From positions 1 to 39,723 of the forward strand of contig JAVCCH010000157.1 of NCBI GenBank assembly GCA_030765535.1: DNA of 39,723 bases. The letters run 5' to 3'. Shown here one piece after another: positions 18,550 through 27,111 of this stretch (positions within the stretch are counted from its first letter, which is position 1; every line of letters begins with the position of its first letter). Made by a program: the position numbers and the translations under genes. Source of the stretch: Candidatus Tenebribacter davisii (GTDB taxonomy: Bacteria > Cloacimonadota > Cloacimonadia > Cloacimonadales > TCS61). The notes beneath the pieces are model-generated. The model did not search any database. It worked only from the letters and a program-made list of their open reading frames with translations, and was not told the DNA's origin.

Positions 18550-19647
18550 ATGAAAAAAAATCGTCTACTTTTTATCAGTTTATTATTATTAGTCTCGATC
18601 AATTTTCTTTGGAGTCAGACTGTTGCAAAATGGCATACATCGATGGGTGATTTTGAAGTTACAATGCGTGAGGATCTGGTTCCTATTACTGTTGGAAATT
18701 TTGTAGATCTCACAAATTCAAATTTTTATGATAATTTGATCTTTCATCGCGTTATTAGTGATTTCATGATACAAGATGGTTGCCCTCTAGGAACTGGTTA
18801 CGGTGGACCAGGATATGCTATTCCAGATGAATTTCATCCAAGCATAAATTATAATGTGCCATATGTTTTAGGCATGGCAAATGCAGGTGCAAATACAGGT
18901 GGTTCTCAATATTTTATTACTGTTGAGTCATATCCATCACTCAACAATAGCTATTCAGCTTTTGGCCATGTAACACTAGGTTCTAACATTGTCGAAGAAA
19001 TCAGTGAAGTACCTACAACCGGTCCTAACGGTACACCTGCCAATAAGCCTCTTACAGATGTTGTAATAGACAGCATAAGGATAATGACTCCACGACTTGA
19101 TGGTTATTTACCTATAGAAGATACTCTTTATGTTAATGCTGGAGAAGCGATGGTATTCGCTTTAGTTTGTAATGAAGAAGATGTAACTTATTCCTGGTTT
19201 ATTGATGATGAGCTGCAAATGGAAACCAGTTTCATCTTAAATTTTACACCTGCAGTTAATGGATGGCATGAAGTTAAAGGAGTGGTCTCCAATGAAAATT
19301 ATGATCTACCAAAAGTGTGGTGGATATATGTTACGGGAGGTACAGAGATAACGGATGATGTAATAAGTAATAATACCAGACTTTATCAGAATATACCTAA
19401 CCCATTCAATCCGGAAACTACTATCAAATTCTATCTGAATGAAGCGGAGCAAGTTTCTCTGGAAATTCGCAACATAAAAGGACAACTGGTAAAAACATTA
19501 TTAAAGAGTGAGCTTCAAGCCGGAGAACATAGCATAATTTGGAATGGAAAAGATGATTCAGGGCATAATGTTGCATCCGGTATTTATCTTTATCATTTGA
19601 AAACGAATAACATTTCAGAAATAAAAAAGGCAATATTACTCAAATAG
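18550..19647 (+). CDS. Secreted cyclophilin-type peptidyl-prolyl isomerase with a T9SS sorting tail
   Basis: ATG 18550 has AGGGAGG upstream. The 365-residue product has a signal peptide (1-22, ending LWS/QTV). A cyclophilin domain spans about 24-180 and contains the active-site stretch FHRVISDFMIQDGCP with the catalytic Arg, then GSQYFITV and FGHVTLG. A short Ig/PKD-like beta domain follows (about 190-270; VNAGEAMVFALVCNEEDVTYSWFIDD). The T9SS-type tail (about 280-365) contains NIPNPFNPETTIKF and ends KKAILLK. The enzyme would isomerise prolyl bonds outside the cytoplasm, perhaps at the cell surface. The next gene starts 8 nt later, so the two are likely co-transcribed. Confidence 0.9.
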   Translation: MKKNRLLFISLLLLVSINFLWSQTVAKWHTSMGDFEVTMREDLVPITVGNFVDLTNSNFYDNLIFHRVISDFMIQDGCPLGTGYGGPGYAIPDEFHPSINYNVPYVLGMANAGANTGGSQYFITVESYPSLNNSYSAFGHVTLGSNIVEEISEVPTTGPNGTPANKPLTDVVIDSIRIMTPRLDGYLPIEDTLYVNAGEAMVFALVCNEEDVTYSWFIDDELQMETSFILNFTPAVNGWHEVKGVVSNENYDLPKVWWIYVTGGTEITDDVISNNTRLYQNIPNPFNPETTIKFYLNEAEQVSLEIRNIKGQLVKTLLKSELQAGEHSIIWNGKDDSGHNVASGIYLYHLKTNNISEIKKAILLK

Positions 19648-20928: not shown

Positions 20929-21249
20929 ATGAACAAAGTAATTATGGCAATTTTATTACTCTTTTTATTCTCTTGTGTTATTAATATTGGTGATGTAAAT
21001 CAGCGTCATGGTGAATTAAATAGAGAATGCAAGAAATTACTAAAAAAACAAAAGGTTGAAGTTCATTCTGTATTAAAAGATTTGGAAATGGGAACCCCTG
21101 AGAGAGTTATTGCAACAAGTGATTCTACCGAAACAGAATATTTCTATAAAAGATATGTGCCTAAGCGTAAGAACAGATATTATGATGAAATTATTCTGGA
21201 TTTTACGAATAACGTTTTATTGAAGTTTAAAGTAAATATAGTTCGTTAA
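20929..21249 (+). CDS. Small lipoprotein, possibly BamE/SmpA-like
   Basis: ATG 20929 follows AAAGGAGATG. The 106-residue product has a lipoprotein signal with lipobox LFSC (Cys16). The mature part has a helical start (RHGELNRECKKLLKKQ), then LEMGTPERVI followed by a Tyr-rich beta hairpin and IILDFTNNVLLKFKV. The G-T/M-x-x-V turn followed by two or three beta strands resembles the BamE/SmpA fold of outer-membrane assembly lipoproteins, but similarity is weak and I would not assign the name. It lies 25 nt after the flavoprotein gene, probably in the same transcript. Confidence 0.65.
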   Translation: MNKVIMAILLLFLFSCVINIGDVNQRHGELNRECKKLLKKQKVEVHSVLKDLEMGTPERVIATSDSTETEYFYKRYVPKRKNRYYDEIILDFTNNVLLKFKVNIVR

Positions 21250-21284: not shown

Positions 21285-22625
21285 ATGAGTAAAATTACAC
21301 ATATTATTAAACGTAGCGGAGCTGTTGTATCTTTTAAAAAGGAACGTATCTCCAATGCAATTTTTAGAGCAGCAGTTGCAGTAGGCGGCCGCAATAAAGA
21401 AGTTGCGGATAAGTTAGCAAACGAAGTAGTTGAAATCCTTAATAAAAACTATTCAGATGAAGAGACTCCACATATTGAAGATATTCAGGATACTGTTGAA
21501 AAAGTTCTGATCAAAAACGGGCATACCCAAGTTTCAAAAGCTTACATACTTTATCGGAATAATAATATCCAACGTAGGAAAGATAAGGCAATAAAAGCAT
21601 CTTCCCCATCAACAAATATTCCCTGGCATAAGATCTGGAAAATTTTAGACTGGTCAGTTACTAGAAATCTGCATACAGTTGCAGATTTAAACAAGCGAAT
21701 TAAAAATGGTGAGTTTCCACATATAGTTCATGAATCTGAAATGGCTTATGCAGAAGAAGTTGCATTGGCGGCAGAACTTATTGCAAACAGGATCGATAAA
21801 TTAAAAATGGTATTAATAACCGGACCATCCTCTTCCGGAAAAACAACAACTACCATCAAACTTGAGCAACATCTCAATAAACTTGGATACAAATTTAAAA
21901 TGTTTGCTGTTGATAATTATTTTTATGATCTTTCAATACACCCAAAAGATGAATTTGGTGATTATGATTTTGAAACTCCGCAGGCACTTGATCTGGAATT
22001 AATAAATGAACATATTGAACTCTTATGTAATGGTAAAGAGGTAAATATTCCATTTTACGATTTTAAATCAGGGACAAGATTTCTTGATAAAACACCAATG
22101 AAACTTGAGAAAAATGAAATCCTGCTTATTGACAGCCTGCACGGCCTTTATCCGGAAATGACAAAATCAATTGATGATGAGTATAAATTTAAATTATACC
22201 TGGAACCAATGTTCCAGATCAAAGATAATAATGGGAAATACCTGCGTTGGACAGATATCCGTCTGATCCGTAGAATGCTGCGTGATTCTATTCACCGCGC
22301 CTATAATCCTGCTCAAACCCTGGAACACTGGCATTATGTTCGATCCAGCGAAGTACGTCATATTATACCTTACCTGAATACTGCTGATTACATCATTAAT
22401 AGTGCTATGCCGTATGAACTACCCATCTACAAAGCAAGACTTGGCAAAGATTTTGAAAAATGGGCTGCAGAATACAAAGATAATGAATTGAAAAAAGATG
22501 CCTTTCTTCGTGCTTCACGTATCAATGAATTTATGCAGCAGGTAAGCAGTTTCAGTAATGAATTAGCAATCCCACCAGATTCAGTTATAAGAGAATTCAT
22601 TGGTGGGAGTATTCATAAATATTAA
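21285..22625 (+). CDS. ATP-cone domain fused to a uridine kinase/phosphoribulokinase-like kinase
   Basis: ATG 21285 follows GAGGGAAA. The 446-residue protein has an N-terminal ATP-cone (about 4-95), with VVSFKKERISNAIFRAA, a HIEDIQDTVEKVL segment and KAYILYR. ATP-cones are nucleotide-sensing domains best known from ribonucleotide reductases and NrdR. A linker domain (about 112-172) leads to a P-loop kinase: Walker A GPSSSGKTTTT at about 180-190, then VDNYFYD, the DFETPQALD segment and IPFYDFKSGTR, as in uridine kinase. The pairing suggests a kinase, probably of a nucleoside or sugar, whose activity is tuned by ATP/dATP; substrate specificity is not readable. In many related nucleoside kinases the N-terminus is instead a TGS/ThrRS-like domain. 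It has no export signal. Confidence 0.85.
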   Translation: MSKITHIIKRSGAVVSFKKERISNAIFRAAVAVGGRNKEVADKLANEVVEILNKNYSDEETPHIEDIQDTVEKVLIKNGHTQVSKAYILYRNNNIQRRKDKAIKASSPSTNIPWHKIWKILDWSVTRNLHTVADLNKRIKNGEFPHIVHESEMAYAEEVALAAELIANRIDKLKMVLITGPSSSGKTTTTIKLEQHLNKLGYKFKMFAVDNYFYDLSIHPKDEFGDYDFETPQALDLELINEHIELLCNGKEVNIPFYDFKSGTRFLDKTPMKLEKNEILLIDSLHGLYPEMTKSIDDEYKFKLYLEPMFQIKDNNGKYLRWTDIRLIRRMLRDSIHRAYNPAQTLEHWHYVRSSEVRHIIPYLNTADYIINSAMPYELPIYKARLGKDFEKWAAEYKDNELKKDAFLRASRINEFMQQVSSFSNELAIPPDSVIREFIGGSIHKY

Positions 22626-22660: not shown

Positions 22661-22686
22661 ATAAAATTGATTTAATGGGAGAAAAT

Positions 22687-25600
22687 ATGAGAAACACTAT
22701 TATATTATTATTTTGTATTATTGCAATCAGTTTATCTGCATATCAGGCTGATGTTGCATTTACTGATAGTTGGGATAAACAGGGTTTAAGTATTAAAGAA
22801 CAAAATTTCAAAAATCTTAAATTAAACTATTCGATCAACAAATTTCGTTTTGAAGAAGTTATGATCGATAATGAAAATCTAACTAATATTCATTTGCCGG
22901 GAGTTTTCTTGCCTAACGATGAAGGAATGCCGAATTTACCTGGAAGCGGAAGTTATATTGCTATTCCACAAGGTGCAAAGGCAAACCTGAATATAATCAA
23001 CTACCGAATTGAAAAATATTCTAACATTGAAATAGCTCCTGCTCCACGCATTCCGCTCGATACTGAAGACGGACCTTTGGAATACAATAAAAATAATGAA
23101 ATTTATACCAGAAATGCTAACTATCCTGAAAATTTTATCCAACTTTCCGAACCTACAAAGCTACGTGGTGTTGATGTTGTAATGCTGGGTATTACACCTT
23201 TCCAATATAATCCGGTTACAAAAGAACTTCTGGTTTACCGAGATGTAGAGATGGAAATTACTTACTCAGGTGGAACTGGCCATTTTGGAGAAGACAGACT
23301 GCGAAGCCGCTGGTGGGATCCGATCATCAAAGATGCAATTCTTAACTCCTCAATACTTCCTGAGATCGATTATAATTCAAGAGATATAACCCGAGATGGT
23401 GCAGAATATTTGATTATCTGCCCTGATGATGCTACTTTTATTACTTGGGCAAACACTATCAAAGATTTTCGTCAACAACAGGGTATTTCTACGATGATCC
23501 AAACTGTAACACAAGTTGGAGGGAATACTACAAGTGCAATTGAGACTTACGTGAATAACGCTTATAATAGCTGGGGTACTCCACCGATTGCAGTTCTACT
23601 TTTAGGTGATTATGGATCAAGCGGCAACACTGTGATGTCTTCTGCAAATTTTGCGCATCCATATAGCGGAACCTATATTTCTGACAATGTATTTGCCGAT
23701 GTGGACGGAGATGATCTCCCTGAAATTGCCTTTGCTAGAATGACTGCTCAGAATAGCACTCATCTGGAAAACATGATTACAAAATTTATTGATTATGAAA
23801 ATCAACCACCCATAGATGCAGATTTTTATGATAAGCCAATTACTGCTCTTGGCTGGCAAGACGATAGATGGTTTCAGGTTTGTTCGGAAGTAGTTGGTGG
23901 ATTCTGGAATAATACTCTTGGTAAACAAACAGTAAGAATTAATGCATTAGGTAGTCCTGCCAACAATTACAATTCAGGACCTTGGTCAACCGCTACAAAC
24001 ACTACCACAGTTATGAATTATTTTGGTCCTAATGGACTTGGTTATTTACCTGCCACCCCTCAAGAATTAGGTGGTTTTACAGGCGGAGACGCCACTGATG
24101 TTAATAATGCCATTAATAGTGGTACTTTTATGTTACAACATCGTGATCATGGTTATGAGCTGGGTTGGGGTGAACCATCATATACAAGTTCTAACCTTTC
24201 CGGAATTGGGAATAATGATCCTGTCTTCGTGATGTCTATCAATTGCCTTACTGGACGATTTGATTATGGTAGTGAAGTATTTACTGAAGCTTTTCACCGT
24301 ATGGAGTATGGTGCATTAGGACTTATAGCAGCATCACAAGTTTCTTACTCTTTTGTAAATGATGTATACGTTTGGGGTCTTTATGATTATATGTGGCCCG
24401 ATTTTGATCCGGGATATGGTGCAGCAGGCAATGTTAACATCTTGCCTTGTTTTGGCAATGCATCAGCAAAATATTATTTGCAAGCATCAAGCTGGCCGTC
24501 TAATCCTAGCGAAAAACAGATCACTTACAGACTTTTCCATCATCACGGTGATGCTTTTAGTACTGTTTATTCAGAAATTCCGCAAAATCTTACAGTAACA
24601 CATGCTGCAACAATCCTTTCTGGAGTAACCTCATTTTCTGTAACTGCAAATAATGGTTCTTTTATTGCCTTAACAGTAAATAATGAAATCATTGGTACAG
24701 CAGATGGAACAGGTTCTCCTGTAGACATTACAATTCCTGCTCAATCTTCTGGAACTATACTTGTTACAATCACTAAACAGAATTACTTCCGTTATTCATC
24801 TACAGTTGATGTAATACCTCTAGTCCCAAACATTACCGTAAATCCAACTACTCTTTCTGAGACACTTGGTTTAAACCAAACTGAACAACAAACACTAACA
24901 ATAACAAATGATGGAGAAAGTGGTTCAACATTGAATTATAGTTTGGTGATTGAAAATAATACCCGATCAACAAGCTCAAATCTTAAGTATAAAGCTTATG
25001 AAATCAAAGAGAAAATTGCTAGAGCTTTAACAATAACGTATGAAGAAAGAAATATTTTAAAAGAATTTGAAAATAAAAAAAATATCTTAATCCCAGCAAT
25101 CGGAAGAGCCTCAGCTACTTGTTATCCCACTAGCTCTGATTATTGGAGTGGTTCAACCACTTCATCAACCAAAACTGACAATAGTGAAGCTCGTGCTTAT
25201 GGTGGAGGTGAATCTGGTTGGATAATGTTTGATGTTTCTCCCATCCCTGATGATGCAGCAATAAATTCAATTGTATTTAACTTTTATGTTAATGATACCA
25301 ATTATCCTTATTGGAGTACTACTCCGGTTTCCAATGATCCAGTTACAACTTCTGCATCCACACTTTATGCAGATGTTATAGCAGAAGAAGACACAGATTA
25401 TTATAATTATCAAAATGAAGCAAGTAGTTATGCTACGGGATTGAAGAGTTTGGTTTTAGGTGGTGGAGCAAATACAGATTTATTTAATAAATTAAGCAAT
25501 GACTGGTTTGCAATTGGGCTTTCAAGTCGCGATTCTGACCCTACATACTACCTTGAAGTTGATGGCTGGAACCAAACCAATGTACCGTGTATAGTAGTCA

Positions 25601-27111
25601 ATTACACTCCAAATTTACCTGTTCTGGAAATTACATCTCCAAATGGAAGTGAAGTATGGGCAAATGGAACTTCTCATAACATTACTTGGGATCATTCAGG
25701 TACCGCTCTTGCCAACGTAAAACTGGAACTTTCTACAAATAATGGATCTACTTATTCAGATATTATTGCTTCTACACCAAACGATGGAACTTATGAATGG
25801 ACAATCGCAGGAAGTATTTCTGAGCAATGTTTGGTTCGTGTTAGCGATCCTTCAGAATCAACTACAAATGATGTTTCAGATGCTGTATTTAGAATTTATG
25901 ATACTGTGAGTTGGCTCACAATAGGTCAAGACAATGGTTCTTTGGGTCAGAGTTTTTCTGATAATTTAACTTTAACGTTTGATTCTTCCGGTCTTTCTGC
26001 AGGTACATATAATGCAAACATAGTAATTTCATCAAATGATCCGGATGAAGCAACTGTTACAATTCCTGTAACATTAGTTGTTAATGATAACAGTTCCAGT
26101 GGTTCAGGAGATAATTCTGGTAACACTTCAGGTCCTGCTGTAGTAGATATGCCATTAACAAATATTGACGGTAATTCGGTAGATCCCAACGTTTCAATAG
26201 ATCCAGCTGATACTCTCCCAATTACAGTTAATGTAACTGTAACAGATGAAGTACAGGGTTCAGTTCCAGTTGCATATCCCGATAATGTAATAATTTCTTA
26301 TGCTGTTGATATAATCGGAACCATCTCAGATGTGAATTTAGCTTTTGATTTAGAATTCACTGGTCTTACTGGTTTAGACCAAGTACACTGGCTTAATGGT
26401 TACAATTGGGAAGTTCCAAATAACGTTAATATAGAAACACCAAATCATATCACTTTCAATTTAACATTAACAGATAGAAATGCTTCTACAGAGATCATTC
26501 TTACTCGTGATGATCCTCTACCGGTTACCCTCTCCTCTTTCACAGCAGCTTATATTAGTAACTCTCCAAAAATTAATTGGGTAACACAGTCGGAATCCGA
26601 TAATATTGGTTGGAATGTATATCGATCTTATTCAGGCAACTTTGGTCAGGCTTCCAAAATAAATTCTGAAATGATCCCTGGAAATGGAACAACCAGTGAA
26701 CCTTCCTTCTATTCTTTTACAGATGAAGATGAAGTTTGTGCAGGCTTCACATATTGGTACTGGTTAGAAAGTATCAGTGGTTCAGGTGAAACTGAGAGTT
26801 TTGGACCGGTTTCTTTAACTATTCCTGGTGGGGGTAATAACATACCGGCAATACCTCTTACAACTGAATTATCTCAGAATTATCCTAATCCCTTTAATCC
26901 CAGTACACTCATATCATTTGATATAAAAGAGAATGAAACCGGAATTTTAACAATTTACAATATTAAGGGTCAACTTCTTGTAACTGAAGAATTTGAGACA
27001 GGACGGCATCATTATGTTTGGAATGCTCAGGATCATGCTTCTGGAGTTTACCTGTATAAATTAAAAACCAAATATTATTCCAGGATCATGAAAATGTTAC
27101 TTGTTAAATAG
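22687..27111 (+). CDS. Secreted gingipain-like C25 cysteine protease with Ig-like domains and a T9SS tail
   Basis: The frame opens at ATG 22675, but GGGAG lies inside that extension and gives correct spacing to ATG 22687, which starts MRNTIILLF, a proper signal peptide (about 1-18, LSA). The protein is about 1474 residues. A propeptide-like region (about 30-210) precedes a Peptidase C25 domain (about 230-590). The catalytic dyad is His488 in QHRDHG and Cys520 in SINCLTG, 32 residues apart as in gingipains. Asp-rich segments (FADVDGDDLPEIAFARM) fit the family. Further on are a DNRLRE-type domain, a Ser/Thr-rich Kre9-like Ig domain (ITSPNGSEVW…ITWDHSG) and a repeat with SSNDPDEATVTIPVTLVVND. 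The tail has YPNPFNPST and ends KMLLVK. It is likely a surface or extracellular protease. Confidence 0.9.
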   Translation: MRNTIILLFCIIAISLSAYQADVAFTDSWDKQGLSIKEQNFKNLKLNYSINKFRFEEVMIDNENLTNIHLPGVFLPNDEGMPNLPGSGSYIAIPQGAKANLNIINYRIEKYSNIEIAPAPRIPLDTEDGPLEYNKNNEIYTRNANYPENFIQLSEPTKLRGVDVVMLGITPFQYNPVTKELLVYRDVEMEITYSGGTGHFGEDRLRSRWWDPIIKDAILNSSILPEIDYNSRDITRDGAEYLIICPDDATFITWANTIKDFRQQQGISTMIQTVTQVGGNTTSAIETYVNNAYNSWGTPPIAVLLLGDYGSSGNTVMSSANFAHPYSGTYISDNVFADVDGDDLPEIAFARMTAQNSTHLENMITKFIDYENQPPIDADFYDKPITALGWQDDRWFQVCSEVVGGFWNNTLGKQTVRINALGSPANNYNSGPWSTATNTTTVMNYFGPNGLGYLPATPQELGGFTGGDATDVNNAINSGTFMLQHRDHGYELGWGEPSYTSSNLSGIGNNDPVFVMSINCLTGRFDYGSEVFTEAFHRMEYGALGLIAASQVSYSFVNDVYVWGLYDYMWPDFDPGYGAAGNVNILPCFGNASAKYYLQASSWPSNPSEKQITYRLFHHHGDAFSTVYSEIPQNLTVTHAATILSGVTSFSVTANNGSFIALTVNNEIIGTADGTGSPVDITIPAQSSGTILVTITKQNYFRYSSTVDVIPLVPNITVNPTTLSETLGLNQTEQQTLTITNDGESGSTLNYSLVIENNTRSTSSNLKYKAYEIKEKIARALTITYEERNILKEFENKKNILIPAIGRASATCYPTSSDYWSGSTTSSTKTDNSEARAYGGGESGWIMFDVSPIPDDAAINSIVFNFYVNDTNYPYWSTTPVSNDPVTTSASTLYADVIAEEDTDYYNYQNEASSYATGLKSLVLGGGANTDLFNKLSNDWFAIGLSSRDSDPTYYLEVDGWNQTNVPCIVVNYTPNLPVLEITSPNGSEVWANGTSHNITWDHSGTALANVKLELSTNNGSTYSDIIASTPNDGTYEWTIAGSISEQCLVRVSDPSESTTNDVSDAVFRIYDTVSWLTIGQDNGSLGQSFSDNLTLTFDSSGLSAGTYNANIVISSNDPDEATVTIPVTLVVNDNSSSGSGDNSGNTSGPAVVDMPLTNIDGNSVDPNVSIDPADTLPITVNVTVTDEVQGSVPVAYPDNVIISYAVDIIGTISDVNLAFDLEFTGLTGLDQVHWLNGYNWEVPNNVNIETPNHITFNLTLTDRNASTEIILTRDDPLPVTLSSFTAAYISNSPKINWVTQSESDNIGWNVYRSYSGNFGQASKINSEMIPGNGTTSEPSFYSFTDEDEVCAGFTYWYWLESISGSGETESFGPVSLTIPGGGNNIPAIPLTTELSQNYPNPFNPSTLISFDIKENETGILTIYNIKGQLLVTEEFETGRHHYVWNAQDHASGVYLYKLKTKYYSRIMKMLLVK

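Follow-up and report, generated by a model that had tools for sequence, protein, structure and literature searches.

In textbooks, the ATP-cone is the switch through which dATP controls ribonucleotide reductase. Within the window, by which we mean the whole 39,723-nucleotide stretch of “Candidatus Tenebribacter davisii” DNA analyzed here, such a cone is found at the head of a P-loop kinase, raising the question of what the switch could control there and what the kinase phosphorylates. A conserved family of cone-kinases would represent a separate route for cells to sense the dNTP pool, as well as a natural test of a mobile sensor domain transplanting control onto a different enzyme.

A conserved ATP-cone/kinase fusion

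The whole gene (positions 21285..22625, on the plus strand like all features of the protein) is an open reading frame with an ATG start, preceded by the purine-rich GAGGGAAACAA, and encodes a 446-aa ATP-cone/PRK-family kinase fusion according to Pfam. The opposite (minus) strand of 21285-22625 is closed and full of stops. The initial annotation had proposed an N-terminal ATP-cone (about residues 4-95) ahead of a P-loop kinase with the motif GPSSSGKTTTT, and both domains are recovered: the ATP-cone model (PF03477) matches residues 6-92 with 81.4 bits (cut-off 25.8; E 7e-23), and the PRK/uridine-kinase model (PF00485) matches residues 178-373 with 74.0 bits against a cut-off of 22 (E 2e-20). From Pfam, structure overlay, alignment and residue counts together, we delimit the cone as residues 3-98 (21291..21578). 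It is followed in the model by a helical linker (residues 107-168; 21603..21788), the part of which from residue 123 is held in common with the TGS-type kinases described below. The P-loop kinase domain (residues 174-375; 21804..22409; Pfam and UCK2 overlay) carries the Walker A motif GPSSSGKTTTT in its translation at residues 180-190 (21822..21854), and the protein ends in a helical tail with the sequence REFIGGS (residues 376-446; 22410..22622), also common to TGS-type kinases. The AF2 model of the 446-aa protein reaches a pLDDT of 87.4 and a pTM of 0.71.

We confirmed 360 relatives by tblastn in genome contigs. The best 80 of these 360 show 59 to 86% identity and cover the query end to end in most cases, with some a few residues short and two (L006 and L077) showing larger gaps at contig ends. 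Labels among these best 80 are Cloacimonadota, Ignavibacteriota (some as “Bacteroidetes” or “bacterium”), Chloroflexota and, twice, Armatimonadota, the first three (Ignavibacteria in the case of the second) forming the bulk. Searching with PF03477 and PF00485 together, the check suggested at annotation, we observe both domains, at the Pfam cut-off or a strict E-value, in all 42 members scanned out of 81 sequences. In addition, 138 of the 446 columns in the alignment of these 81 sequences hold a single residue, that of the window protein, at 97% or more. The fusion is therefore beyond chance.

Full-length forms are present in 22 of 78 genomes drawn from the window's phylum (draw centers, which are known carriers, included), in 11 of 99 from the phylum of genome G102 and in 2 of 81 from the phylum of genome G100 (draw centers included in both). 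The 22 carriers in the window's phylum, 20 recognized by kinase match or reading and two (G068 and G069) by frame length alone, belong to only two families, where they make up 15 of 22 and 7 of 10 genomes. Armatimonadota was withdrawn as a further phylum: the genome (G098) of the Armatimonadetes-labeled record L051 shares its contig coordinates with G054, a genome placed in the window's own family, and represents a mislabeled assembly, while L014, which also bears an Armatimonadota label, is a close sister of L051 in the kinase tree. Weak “cones” on frames of 457-461 aa in G057 and G050 sit in unrelated proteins, and a 544-aa frame with a cone in G077 looks like NrdD. The Cloacimonadota genome with L004 contains a second, divergent ATP-cone kinase (L117), which clusters with Melioribacteraceae (support 99/91) and may point to lateral transfer or to an error in binning.

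None of 168 pattern hits in viral contigs is a relative by tblastn. A PADLOC search of the window protein returned weak matches alone (E 0.002 and 0.004), and PHROGs matched only the cone, with an NrdD-like family.

Gene neighborhood

Preceding the kinase gene are a small ORF and a gene for an FAD-dependent protein, and following it is a gene for a gingipain-like C25 peptidase. The small ORF (20929-21249) is lipoprotein-like, has no Pfam match and is kept directly upstream of the kinase in close relatives, and the peptidase (22675-27111; 1478 aa) has a propeptide and a sorting tail. At 18550-19647, the window encodes a cyclophilin-type isomerase whose C terminus is a secretion sorting-like tail. 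We clustered neighboring ORFs at 80 of 81 copies (L075 left out) and compared the larger clusters. Across these 80 copies, no neighbor keeps a fixed place across phyla as an operon partner would, and no conserved nucleotide-metabolism neighbor was found. Two clusters do extend across phyla, namely, secreted proteins at 20 loci, in varying places on both strands and probably linked into one cluster through a shared sorting tail, and a histidine-kinase-like protein at 8 loci, again in varying places. Two further neighbors come back within Cloacimonadota only, the FAD-dependent protein at 10 loci and the small lipoprotein at 5.

The nucleotide site of the ATP-cone

Structure prediction of the cone, another check proposed at annotation, bears out the assignment, with model residues 3-99 overlaying the dATP-bound cone 5OLK at Z 16.6 and an rmsd of 1.3 Å over 97 residues (38% identity). 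In Leeuwenhoekiella blandensis NrdB, Arg102 contacts the gamma-phosphate, a salt bridge joins Asp73 to Arg95, and the cone-cone contact of the dATP-bound tetramer is built from Met80, Ile92, Ile93, Asp73, Asp76 and Lys89 (PMC5794259). By alignment and overlay, Arg102 corresponds to R98 and the salt bridge to D69/R91, while Met80, Ile92, Ile93, Asp76 and Lys89 correspond to I76, I88, L89, E72 and K85; each of these residues is the commonest at its position, in at least 76 of 81 sequences. The cone residues Lys7, Arg8, Tyr83 and Arg91 of Prevotella copri NrdD (PMC11226230) are all retained, as K9, R10, Y90 and R98, whereas its phosphate-coordinating Arg87 falls on position 94, which is Asn in the window protein and Arg in 36 of 81 sequences. 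Overall, K9, R10, Q68, D69, E72, K85, Y90 and R91 are found in 81 of 81 sequences and R98 in 80, so that the loss of nucleotide-binding residues, raised at annotation as an objection, is seen at position 94 alone.

We compared these kinase cones with 12 “reductase” and 8 “NrdR” control cones, both sets defined by frame length rather than by family model. The 12 cones on reductase-length frames have most site and cone-contact residues in common with the kinase cones, I76 being the main exception, while the 8 on NrdR-length frames are without Q68, E72, K85, Y90 and R91 and were not picked up by a profile of the kinase cones. The window cone is thus of the reductase type and not of the NrdR type; the residues shared with the reductase-length cones indicate this type and not a particular oligomer. 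Their retention argues for a largely intact nucleotide site and, as far as residues can tell, a working one. Other positions are particular to the kinase cones. The GGR loop at residues 34-36 (21384..21392) is found in 81 of 81 kinase cones and 0 of 12 on reductase-length frames, I76 in 80 of 81 against 2 of 12, and G79-H80 in 80 and 79 of 81, respectively, with His in 0 of 12. These are therefore candidate sites of contact with the kinase.

The kinase half and its nearest relatives

The description of the kinase as uridine-kinase-like stands in part. Membership of the PRK family is clear, and the NCBIfam udk model (TIGR00235) is the best kinase match; its score of 92 bits, however, lies far below the 220.3-bit cut-off, and the window kinase is distinct from canonical Udk. 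The kinase overlays human UCK2 at Z 14.8 (rmsd 3.1 Å, 185 residues, 26% identity). All 80 cone-type sequences carry D210, E230 (equivalent to UCK2 Asp84), Y258, F260, R326 and R329, of which D210, E230, R326 and R329 correspond to the transfer and ribose-side residues of UCK2. The acceptor-site motif Y-D-F-K-S-G-T-R (residues 258-265; 22056..22079) differs at the position of UCK2 His117, the base-reading residue, which is Tyr in Thermus thermophilus. Here, alignment to UCK2 and 3ASY/3W8R places G263, and 79 of 80 cone-type sequences have Gly at this position. A second motif, D-S-L-H-G-L (residues 283-288; 22131..22148), begins with D-S-L in 80 of 80 cone-type sequences, where E-G-I is found in 26 of 26 TGS-type sequences and in the genome's own Udk. 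To judge from these two sites, G263 and D-S-L, a kinase specific simply for uridine is less likely.

Related two-domain kinases with a TGS-like N terminus had been invoked at annotation, and one is indeed present in the same genome (L085; 557-aa frame), to which the kinase half, from residue 123 to the last residue, shows 35% identity over 324 aa. We observe 44 positions that are near-invariant with the same residue in both 80 cone-type and 26 TGS-type sequences, and Gly at the His117 position is also found in all 26 of the latter. In a tree of 107 rows, with a single, very distant Udk as the outgroup, a branch separates all 80 cone-type sequences from all 26 of the TGS type (support 83/93 and 95/77), which is compatible with one fusion event. 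The tree and the counts include 26 of 30 TGS loci, L100, L108, L110 and L114 being left out because they lack a match to the P-loop pattern.

The one TGS-type enzyme for which we found a published assay is TmUK of Thermotoga maritima. In that work, neither the full-length protein nor three truncations formed UMP, full-length TmUK hydrolyzed ATP when uridine was present, and the assays were run at 37°C, far under the growth temperature of the organism (PMC10248530). Since this TGS enzyme was without uridine-kinase activity, “uridine kinase” is an unproven label for the window protein, given its residues, and caution in its use is advisable for both the cone-type and TGS-type families.

Reductases and other kinases in the carrier genomes

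A PF03477 search of the genome of origin (95% complete) recovered one ATP-cone, that of the window kinase. The one reductase found there by PF02867 is a class II enzyme of 751 aa without a cone (NF006417, 1140 bits against 961), and NrdD was not found. Of four PRK-family frames in this genome, one is the window protein and another the TGS type; the others are a canonical Udk above the NCBIfam cut-off (263 bits; motif Y-D-F-K-T-H-S-R) and a 300-aa relative. With this Udk present, and a thymidine kinase and a tandem dNK encoded as well, the window protein is probably not the principal uridine kinase here. The tandem dNK is a 473-aa frame on contig C70 (L143:265-1686) with two PF01712 matches and, at 1e-20, none from NCBIfam; a genome of the same genus (G048) likewise has a single frame with this double match.

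Canonical Udk accompanies the cone kinase in 36 of 58 genome entries, or 35 of 57 once the G054/G098 double is removed. A different picture emerges in the Ignavibacteria clade (assigned by title, or by place in the tree for L029, L044 and L067), where none of the 15 genomes with a cone kinase yielded a Udk above the cut-off. The cone kinase is the sole udk-model match in seven of these, and eight have further matches under the cut-off. The TGS type is absent from the 8 of 8 Ignavibacteria-clade genomes tested, and no TGS-type match was obtained at E 1e-40, a threshold that TGS-type proteins clear easily, in 99 genomes from the phylum of G102. Thymidine kinase is present in 12 of the 15 genomes and dNK in 13, broken or partial in two of those. 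It may be that uridine/cytidine phosphorylation in this clade falls to the cone kinase alone.

Regarding cones elsewhere in carrier genomes, 7 of the 22 carriers in the window's phylum also have one on a reductase-length frame, which rules out a strict replacement of the reductase cone by the cone kinase. Among 40 genomes reached through relatives (two of the genomes so reached, those of L040 and L058, are chromosome records by title), 22 have cones on kinase-length frames only, and the other 18 have further cones, mainly on NrdR- or reductase-length frames.

Proposed function

We favor, with reasonable though incomplete confidence, a small-molecule kinase gated by ATP/dATP through its cone and acting on a nucleoside-like acceptor, a reading in which we infer the binding, the gating, the oligomer change and the acceptor class. 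The C-terminal PRK-family domain would use ATP to phosphorylate a nucleoside or a nucleoside-like acceptor. At the N terminus, the cone of the reductase type would bind ATP or dATP, perhaps two nucleotides per cone by analogy with Pseudomonas aeruginosa NrdA and L. blandensis NrdB, and would switch the kinase, most likely by way of cones that pair under the influence of dATP and thereby alter the oligomer. Allosteric tuning of the kinase by the nucleotide pool, as put forward in the initial annotation, can be soundly inferred. The acceptor is probably a nucleoside, with uridine or cytidine the most plausible in Ignavibacteria, where the search gave no Udk above the cut-off.

The identity of the acceptor is where the main competing explanation lies. 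Other PRK-fold kinases include phosphoribulokinase, pantothenate kinase and glycerate kinase, and the cone could gate a kinase whose acceptor is a sugar, a vitamin or another phosphate acceptor. With the helical linker included, overlays of the model with type I pantothenate kinase reach Z 16.2 (220 residues, rmsd 3.8 Å), slightly above the value for UCK2, and the replacement of Udk residues by G263 and D-S-L, as well as the Udk, thymidine kinase and tandem dNK already in the genome, point the same way. However, identity in the overlays is 14-17% with pantothenate kinase against 26% with UCK2, the first 27 Foldseek rows are UCK/uridine kinase entries, and udk is the best NCBIfam kinase match, albeit far below its cut-off. 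We therefore hold a non-nucleoside acceptor to be possible but a good deal less probable than a nucleoside-like one.

A kinase domain that acts as a nucleotide-sensing ATPase or regulator without small-molecule transfer, in line with the autoregulation of translation suggested for the TGS type, appears improbable. The T. maritima results (PMC10248530) fit such a role, with ATP hydrolyzed in the presence of uridine and no UMP formed by any construct, but they were obtained far below growth temperature, and the six invariant kinase residues are hard to account for without catalysis on an acceptor. Least of all do we expect the cone to be a relic that merely stabilizes the fold or oligomer; position 94 is not kept as Arg, which would fit such a relic, but the eight cone residues common to all 81 sequences speak against it.

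For the gated nucleoside kinase favored here, a more far-reaching and decidedly tentative reading is that the dATP checkpoint has moved from ribonucleotide reduction to the kinase in genomes where the reductase is cone-less and an NrdR cone was not found. It draws on the genome of origin, with the kinase cone as the sole ATP-cone found and a cone-less class II reductase. If true, dATP would pair the cones and shut or open a nucleoside-phosphorylating enzyme, and the dNTP pool would control salvage and not reduction.

Comparison with known systems

No description of a fusion of a cone with a uridine-kinase-type enzyme was found in the open-access literature, a scope within which absence is weak evidence. 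Nor did that literature describe an ATP-cone together with phosphoribulokinase or a nucleoside kinase, or a kinase domain fused to one; ATP-cone and uridine kinase co-occur there in PMC2795772 alone, with “uridine kinase” appearing only in the reference list within the accessible portion of that article. Each of the two domains is already known by itself.

Class I reductase cones (L. blandensis NrdB, 5OLK; P. aeruginosa NrdA, 5IM3) resemble the window cone in fold and in nucleotide-site and contact residues, but have no kinase attached and carry Arg at position 94 in both structures, where the window cone has Asn. Archaeal 2-phosphoglycerate kinase, whose N terminus is reportedly an ATP-cone according to the ATP-cone paper of 2000, is another small-molecule kinase with a cone-like N terminus. 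Residues 20-98 of the window protein match positions 15-89 of its profile (NF003259) weakly (E 0.003, 17 bits), but only this N-terminal stretch was matched and not the kinase part. Canonical Udk/UCK (TIGR00235) has the fold, Walker A and transfer residues of the window kinase, which in turn differs by a Gly for the base-reading His, an extra helical linker, the C-terminal tail and the fused cone. The closest relative found is the TGS-type kinase, a three-domain “uridine kinase” represented by TmUK and L085, which has the kinase core, the preceding helical segment and the C-terminal REFIGGS tail of the window protein, and in which a ThrRS-like N terminus (by weak matches to ThrRS-length frames) stands where the window protein has its ATP-cone.
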